A stretch of DNA of 64,000 nt from contig NC_088311.1 of assembly GCF_910592395.1 (NCBI RefSeq), positions 7,940,501 through 8,004,500 of the forward strand, given 5' to 3'. Below the pieces are notes generated by a model. It was not told where the DNA came from, ran no database searches, and was given only the letters and a program-made list of their open reading frames with translations. How positions within the stretch are numbered: position 1 is the stretch's first letter; each line of letters opens with the position of its first letter. Shown in pieces: positions 16,262 through 17,710 of this stretch. Position numbers and translations under genes: made by a program. Source of the stretch: Lineus longissimus (Eukaryota > Nemertea > Pilidiophora > Heteronemertea > Lineidae).

Positions 16262-16384
16262 CTGAATCCTGTCATTGTATGTGTCCAGGTTAACAATGCC
16301 GCTGCCGGACACCTTCTTAGTCTCGACCATAGTCTTGAGATCGGCAAGGTGGGTCATGTGTTTGGACATGTCAGTTGCTAGCAC
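16262..16384 (-). CDS. PDE4: PDE4 exon 12B: divergent copy of the duplicated exon
   Basis: 123 nt, 41 codons, phase 0-0, acceptor GATTAG and donor CAG|GTACCG. It encodes [20 protein letters not shown], then [20 protein letters not shown] and Q. It is 33/41 identical to exon 12A in protein and 84/123 in DNA. The changes are S11T, L12H, A26S, V30I, L31V, L32N, N35T and T37N in exon numbering. No stop, frameshift or lost splice site is present, and the pocket residues LATDM are intact. The docking leucine triplet of 12A becomes V-N-L here. I read it as a functional alternative exon. Confidence 0.9.
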
Positions 16385-16654
16385 CTAATCACGCACGAGT
16401 CAATGCAAAAGTTGAGGTAATTATAATTAGTACGGGGAGAGTCTATGTGAGTTAGTGCTGGAGGATGTTATCACTGGATACGCTAGCTTTCCCCTACTCG
16501 TCTTGGCTATAAAATACCGGGCAGATATAGATGAAGTTTCATGCAGTTTCTATGTCACCGCACGAGAAATAAGCCCAAGCAGAAAAGGCCAGTATTAGAG
16601 AGACAGGATCCCACCACCCCACTGCCCACATCAAGTCTGTTTTTCCTCCTCTCG

Positions 16655-16894
16655 ATCACCCCATGCCTGTTCAAACGTGTTTGTTCTTTCAATCACCCCA
16701 CTGCCTGTTCAAACATGTTTTTTCTCTCTCAATCACCCCACTGCCCGTTCAAATGTGTTTTTTCTCTCTCAATTACCCCACTGCCCAATCAAACGTGTGT
16801 TTTTCTCTCTCATTCCCTCAACAGCCTGTTCAAATGTGTTTTTCCTCTCAATCACCCCAATACCTTTACAAACTTGTTTCTTCTCTCTTAATCT
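16655..16894 (+). repeat. Pyrimidine-rich 39-40-bp tandem repeat, six copies
   Basis: Units such as ATCACCCCACTGCCTGTTCA plus AACATGTTTTTTCTCTCTCA. On the minus (transcribed) strand the array is purine-rich (GAGAGAAAAAA). It lies 270 bp upstream of the exon 12B acceptor. Confidence 0.85.
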
Positions 16895-17089
16895 GCTTGG
16901 GGTTATTTCCAGTGACATCCATGCATGGTCAGAACTAGAGAACCATACTGCAAGAACCACTCAACAACAAAAAACATGCAGGACTTGATCTTGTATCAGT
17001 TATACTTCGAAGACGTACTGACAAGAGAAAGTGAGAAGAAGGGGAATGAAAAGTATCTGAAAGTTTCAGAAGAAAGTTTGAGAACTATA

Positions 17090-17252
17090 CTGGGTGTCTT
17101 TCAATAGAATGCCCCACAAAAATTTTTCAAAATAGGAATGCAAATTTGACGACCCTTGTTTCATATATCTAGCATTTCTAGGTGGATTTTTCAATTTTCT
17201 CACTTCTATATCTAGTGTAGCATCACATCAGACATGTTTGGGAGACACCCAG
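17090..17252. mobile_element. TIR element (CTGGGTGTC...GACACCCAG), TA target site
   Basis: 163 bp beginning CTGGGTGTCTTTCAATAG and ending TTTGGGAGACACCCAG, flanked by TA on both sides. It has no coding capacity and is a MITE by structure. Confidence 0.7.
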
Positions 17253-17587
17253 TAGAATTTCAGAAAAGCAAGATTTTAGTCGTACAGGACAGAACGAGTG
17301 AAGGCAAATCTGTTGAGGGTATGACCTGCCTGATAGATTTAGAGCCAGTTTGAGACGGGGGTAGCCAACGATGGGGCGGACTGTCACAGCATGCTGTCAC
17401 AGGGAAGATACCACCAAAGACGGCATAAAAGTCCCAATCTGGACTCGGGCTAAACGAAAAAATTTCAACAAGTTTTACAATTTTACAATTTTCTATATTG
17501 CCTTCTTTGGTGATATATAAACGCAGGGCAGAAAAACTGCTAAAAACGCAAACGCAGCGATCCAGGCAATCCTGAATGATGTCCCAC

Positions 17588-17710
17588 CTGAATACGGTCG
17601 GTGTAGTTATCTAACAGCAGTACTCCTGAGCCGGCAACCTTTTTTGTTTCCACCATCGTCTTCAGATCTGCCAACAGGCTCATATGCTTGGACATATCTG
17701 TAGCTAGCAC
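17588..17710 (-). CDS. PDE4: PDE4 exon 12A: canonical copy of the duplicated exon
   Basis: 123 nt, 41 codons, phase 0-0, residues 521-561. It encodes [20 protein letters not shown], then [16 protein letters not shown] and TDRIQ. Acceptor CAATTAG and donor CAG|GTGGGA. The sequence is nearly that of dunce. Met526 lines the substrate pocket in known structures. The segment VETKKV...LLL matches the ERK-docking KIM described in mammalian PDE4. A second intact version of this exon lies 1.2 kb downstream, so the two are probably alternatives: including both would duplicate 41 residues in the middle of the fold. Confidence 0.95.

Follow-up and report, generated by a model that had tools for sequence, protein, structure and literature searches.

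The window analyzed here, a 64,000-nt stretch of the Lineus longissimus genome, carries a PDE4 gene on its minus strand. The predicted protein contains UCR1, UCR2, and a class I phosphodiesterase catalytic domain with HD motifs, and its nearest homologues carry PF18100 and PF00233. It belongs to the same family as the known PDE4 enzymes, for which two articles describe UCR1, UCR2, a catalytic unit, and an ERK-site region (PMC2929239; PMC7291338).

Eleven exons were placed from UCR2 to the stop codon, counting both members of an alternative pair, and a 545-residue frame stays open with either member; the internal junctions of the model are GT-AG. Two UCR1 exons lie at 56232..56411 (FDVENG...) and 28064..28165, and the exon that links UCR1 to UCR2 was not securely found in the window. 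UCR2 is encoded at 24596..24714, where two acceptor AGs are possible and 24712 is the working start of the model, and at 24347..24440. The linker and the start of the catalytic unit occupy exon c1 (20704..20918), followed by c2 (20260..20358), c3 (19860..20024, with HNNVHAADV), c4 (18690..18789, with the metal-binding motif HDVDHPG), and c5 (18311..18465), which ends in ...MVIDM. After the pair come c7 (14326..14508) and the last coding exon, c8 (13607..13993), which holds the PLSP site, the FQF motif, and the stop codon. All of these exons are on the minus strand. We take the fourth metal-binding aspartate of PDE4 to be the one in HCADLSNP, outside the swapped exon.

Repeats occur within and beside the gene. 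A 33-bp minisatellite of about 54 copies (5133-6915) yields ORFs of 305 and 281 residues, has open frames on both strands for a large part of its extent, and is very likely not a gene. Members of an interspersed family at 4091-4276, 10227-10404, 19629-19805, and 61956-62097 share about 120-190 bp pairwise at 75-86% identity and occur on both strands; the copy at 19629-19805 lies within a PDE4 intron. Between the two UCR1 exons are tandem arrays at 42726-43025 (a 65-bp unit, 4.6 copies, 96%) and 50009-50377 (a unit of about 60 bp, 5.7 copies).

A duplicated exon in the catalytic domain

The exon pair sits between c5 (read on the minus strand, 18465-18311) and c7 (14508-14326) and supplies residues 316-356 of the 545-residue partial model. 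The canonical copy, c6B (hereafter B; 17588..17710, minus strand), comes first in the transcript and the alternative copy, c6A (A; 16262..16384, minus strand), second, separated by an intron of 1203 nt (16385..17587); plus-strand frames at the pair contain stops. As the initial annotation had reported, both exons are 123 nt long, encode 41 residues in phase 0-0, and have the acceptor ATTAG followed by GTGCTAGC. The reported similarity was likewise reproduced: A and B are identical at 33 of 41 residues and 84 of 123 nucleotides, with synonymous changes in 19 of the 33 unchanged codons. Both donors are GT (CAG/gtggga for B and CAG/gtaccg for A). Adjacent homologous exons of the same phase and equal length with usable splice sites are what is looked for in a mutually exclusive pair. 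The two copies also resemble those catalogued in a human atlas of mutually exclusive exons, which describes homologous neighbors, matched in length and phase, that encode the same piece of a domain and end in secondary structure (PMC5740500).

Divergence between the copies is concentrated at third codon positions. The 39 nucleotide differences are distributed over first, second, and third codon positions as 8, 6, and 25, and the probability of at least 25 of 39 falling at third positions by chance is 8e-5. A dN/dS check by NG86 gave a dN of 0.18 and a dS that was not computable. Exon B is the canonical form: residues 2-41 (40 of the 41) can be aligned with PDE4A-D chains from the PDB, and all 41 residues are identical in Tubulanus, Dimorphilus, and Liolophura. 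No third copy or pseudo-copy was found by tblastn in the 64-kb window, where a six-frame scan gave, after A itself, a next best 41-mer with 11 of 41 identities to B.

Comparison with the nemertean Tubulanus indicates how strongly A has been held. The window and Tubulanus agree at 38/41 residues in A and 41/41 in B. The flanking exons c5 and c7 score 48/52 and 51/61, and the remaining exons give 48/55 (c3), 31/33 (c4), 24/33 (c2), and 43/72 (c1). A score of 38 is likewise reached by 125 of 438 other 41-column windows of the protein, and A is thus as constrained as catalytic-domain coding sequence and not more so. Since A has been kept at the level of its neighbors, its disuse would not be expected. 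The initial annotation had proposed an old duplication under purifying selection, and the conservation of A relative to its flanks, together with the occurrence of A-type exons in two phyla, supports that proposal.

The splice signals of the two copies differ in strength; they look U2-type by eye. The B acceptor is preceded by 17 pyrimidines in 22 positions, with a run of 10; the A acceptor has 13 of 22, as do c1 and c3, and its longest run, of 3, is the shortest seen. The A donor matches at 6 of 9 positions, the lowest among the ten internal exons from UCR2 to c7. This comparison leaves out the UCR1 exons, the first UCR2 acceptor, and the end of c8, for which the coordinates used were imprecise.

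Neither of two simple ways of enforcing exclusion applies to the pair. The 1203-nt intron is long enough to exclude steric blocking of joint inclusion, and since 123 is divisible by three, the frame is kept and a frameshift does not remove products that contain both exons. In these two respects the pair differs from tandem mutually exclusive exons in which frameshift or steric hindrance enforces the choice. Among inverted repeats in the intron, none clearly fits docking-selector pairing. According to section 7 of the human atlas, 484 of its human clusters must be regulated otherwise than by simple exclusion mechanisms (PMC5740500).

The intron between B and A also holds a 40-bp array of 6.5 copies (16615-16893), which is purine-rich on the transcript strand and pyrimidine-rich on the plus strand and is flanked by inverted arms of 23 nt with 87% complementarity (16561-16583 and 16892-16914). 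Together, the array and its arms are a possible splicing regulatory element.

Second copies in nemerteans and annelids

The second copy is not confined to the window species. A search with the full protein carrying exon A returned 4348 matches, and first among the 120 listed was P0001, a PDE4C-like isoform X4 from the palaeonemertean Tubulanus polymorphus. In P0001, at the position that the pair occupies in the window, a B exon matching the window at 41/41 residues is joined directly to an A exon matching at 38/41. Absence of the copy from closely related species, which the initial annotation had raised as the observation that would tell against it, was not what was found. The Tubulanus protein departs from our reading of the window in that both exons are modelled in tandem, and its name gives no hint of an alternative pair. 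Among annelids, the Dimorphilus gyrociliatus protein P0006 likewise carries a second copy, of 42 residues, after B; this copy differs much more strongly from the remaining A-types than they do from one another, has I rather than H at residue 12, and is perhaps relaxed or specialized. The gene models of both P0001 and P0006 join the two exons, and both appear from their names to be automatic annotations. B precedes A in all three genes in which both are present, two of these being gene models.

Three further proteins, annelid-like in sequence, carry an A-type exon alone. P0111, P0241, and P0242, the latter two found among the 120 matches listed of 3725 in a search with the P0111 exon, are 716, 680, and 739 residues long and are encoded on contigs of 2246, 3353, and 6166 nt in uninterrupted frames. 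In each, I[DN][MI] and VLQ[NS], which match the sequences on either side of the pair in the window, enclose a single exon of the A type, and B is absent. Because the window gene has introns at these junctions, such long uninterrupted frames are most simply read as spliced mRNA; the source label, 'lgn', stands for Logan assemblies. The strongest support for replacement of B by A comes from P0111, P0241, and P0242. Related worms have retained the second version and apparently use it.

The residues that mark A-type exons are rare. H12 and S26 occur together in 4 of 214 exon instances, namely the second copy of P0001 and the single exons of P0111, P0241, and P0242. These instances derive from 209 proteins of at least 290 residues, part of a fetched set of 329. 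That set consists of top-ranked matches rather than a sample, and nearly all of its members contain B only. The protein collection was clustered at 90% identity, such that A isoforms standing behind B representatives would be hidden, as would pairs of A-only and B-only products from one species. A search of short ORFs gave no H12 in the 120 matches listed of 1002 candidates, 18 of which were read, and one of its hits, P0124, is ambiguous.

Several candidates were set aside. In the vertebrate 'double exon' proteins P0002-P0005 both copies have the same sequence, with one of the two in P0005 lacking its first residues, and these proteins were judged to be assembly or model artefacts. P0007 was discounted as cut short and repeating a piece. 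In four PDE4 rows from hagfish, H at position 12 is accompanied by T at position 26, which was taken as convergence.

Origin of exon A and choice between the copies

Two trees bear on the history of the pair. With the swapped exon removed (30 rows, 690 columns), the window groups with Tubulanus at 100/97 support and 79% identity, which places the gene among nemerteans; Capitella, Dimorphilus, Ridgeia, P0111, P0241, and P0242 form one clade at 98/98 whose internal order is not settled, and the long branches of Schistosoma and Adineta come together. A tree of the exon itself (29 hand-picked rows, 41 columns, with the Dimorphilus copy omitted for its length and divergence) places five A-types on one side of a branch with support of 77/81, under the threshold of the tool. 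When the annelid A-types were constrained to join two annelid B-types, the likelihood was 8.84 log units worse with a p-AU of 0.068, which is not rejected at 0.05. A single origin of A in nemerteans and annelids is favored but not proven.

Structure prediction suggests that A can stand in the place of B. An AlphaFold2 model of P0111, built from a 38-row alignment and with a mean pLDDT of 67.4, matches PDE4 catalytic domains with a target TM of up to 0.94 and an rmsd of 2.2, and A alone is thus predicted to give the normal PDE4 fold. The exon (496-536) spans the end of one helix (482-497), a whole helix (501-517), a loop, and the start of another helix (531-546), with block pLDDT values over 491-540 of 90, 87, 81, 71, and 94. 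In the tandem P0001 model, the values over 491-580 are 84, 83, 56, 46, 54, 49, 41, 62, and 92. This loss of confidence suits the use of one exon at a time, but it comes from a shallow alignment and is only suggestive. The models place the exon peptide within the fold, where a second copy in tandem, or the loss of the only one, would be disruptive.

Other explanations of the pair differ in what they make of exon A. It is highly improbable that A is a duplicate left out of every transcript, whether silent or in decay: its short pyrimidine run and low donor match would fit such an exon, but its pyrimidine content equals that of c1 and c3, it has no stops, its differences from B favor third positions, it is retained in Tubulanus, and A-type exons stand alone in three annelid-like ORFs. 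A more serious alternative, though still a rather doubtful one, accepts A as a real alternative exon but supposes that it was duplicated separately in nemerteans and annelids and acquired similar changes by convergence. Most A changes are at sites that also vary among B-type exons, the Dimorphilus copy lacks the histidine at residue 12, and neither the AU test nor the support for the A clade reaches the usual cutoff. Against separate duplication, the best exon tree unites the A-types, the combination of H12 and S26 was seen in A-types only, and the order of the copies is identical in the three genes that have both.

The remaining alternatives concern whether A replaces B. If both were cassette exons, the gene would normally also produce an isoform longer by 41 residues, which might be inactive and serve regulation; joint inclusion preserves the frame, and the Tubulanus and Dimorphilus gene models do join both exons. 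This is nonetheless quite improbable, given that those models look automatically annotated, that A occurs alone in P0111, P0241, and P0242, that AlphaFold confidence in the tandem form drops to 41-62 over residues 511-570, and that both exon ends lie inside helices, which section 7 of the human atlas treats as a criterion for mutually exclusive exons (PMC5740500). The A-only ORFs could themselves belong to a paralogue, or their species could have lost B. That they are products of a paralogous PDE4 gene, and hence uninformative on alternative splicing, is unlikely. They are known from proteins and contigs without genomic DNA, and two have long branches (1.14 and 1.23) in the exon-free tree, but that tree does not set them apart from the named annelids, and in the window, Tubulanus, and Dimorphilus the second copy is in the same gene as B.

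We therefore consider it likely that this nemertean PDE4 gene contains an ancient, tandemly duplicated, mutually exclusive exon pair. One-or-the-other splicing, which the initial annotation had expected, is supported by the three full-length A-only ORFs, by the predominance of B-only proteins, by exon ends that fall in predicted helices, and by the poor tandem model, but is not proven for the window species. Each mature mRNA would receive B or A and not both; B, with its long pyrimidine run, would be the default, and A, with a short run and a weaker donor, may need an activator.

A probable swap at the kinase docking loop

The exon covers a region implicated in partner binding. A kinase interaction motif (KIM) is placed at residues 484-497 in a numbering that includes H361, H397, and D398, according to PMC2929239, and counting from these residues in the window protein assigns the motif to exon residues 20-33. 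The same count misses the ERK site of the window protein, presumably because its C-terminal part is of another length. The KIM is described as lying on a beta-hairpin loop and acting with the FQF site to dock ERK in the relevant passages of PMC12699188 and PMC7291338, and the term is absent from the available text of PMC5290487. Both PLSP and FQF are present in the window protein. In the P0111 model the motif forms a loop with no strands.

The A swap alters two residues in one helix together with the following loop, which contains the KIM; the other constant change in A-types, L12H, is in the helix before the loop. The 33 unchanged residues in the window include D5, M6, and D15. In P0111, P0241, and P0242 the motif reads VETRKVSGNGLLRL, VETRNISGSGLLDL, and VETHRISGNSVFNL, respectively. 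The swap plausibly retunes docking. The effect on the KIM would be modest: the nemertean A retains KK and L33, and some PDE4s with one exon, flatworm enzymes among them, likewise have a polar residue at position 32. The likely outcome of the swap is an enzyme that remains active in catalysis and keeps its fold but docks kinases or other partners differently.

Activity itself may also vary among A forms. D479 is among four residues that confer activity and is an asparagine in Ciona, as stated in section 5 of PMC2929239. By the count used above it corresponds to exon residue 15. This residue is D in 212 of the 214 exon instances, A of Tubulanus and P0111 among them, and also in A of the window; it is H in P0241 and P0242. 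Because of this histidine, activity as well as docking may be altered in two of the three A forms from annelids.

Tandemly duplicated mutually exclusive exons are themselves well known, the clusters of the muscle myosin heavy chain gene reportedly among them; the novelty here lies in the location of the pair, within the PDE4 catalytic domain, and in how deep it reaches in the phylogeny. The initial annotation knew of no such exon in PDE4, and no report of a mutually exclusive exon in PDE4 or dunce, or of an annelid PDE4 splice variant, was found in the open-access literature; PMC3548711, in the part available, concerns PDE4DIP only. PDE4 diversity as described in PMC2929239 is N-terminal, whereas the variation at this locus is inside the catalytic domain.

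A more far-reaching proposal, which we advance as a tentative possibility, is that since before the nemertean-annelid split a catalytic exon switch has determined whether or not PDE4 displays the standard MAP-kinase docking loop, with splicing governing the control of cAMP breakdown by ERK, or another partner, separately from the N-terminal isoform code. As a drug target PDE4 has been studied intensively, and its isoforms are described as N-terminal variants around one constant catalytic unit. The exon pair indicates that the enzyme is probably switchable inside its core and not just at its front end, and it singles out the KIM loop and one helix as a regulatory surface. Occurring in nature and kept in two or more phyla, an alternative catalytic exon of this kind would amount to an evolutionary experiment on which residues of the catalytic domain may vary with the enzyme still useful.
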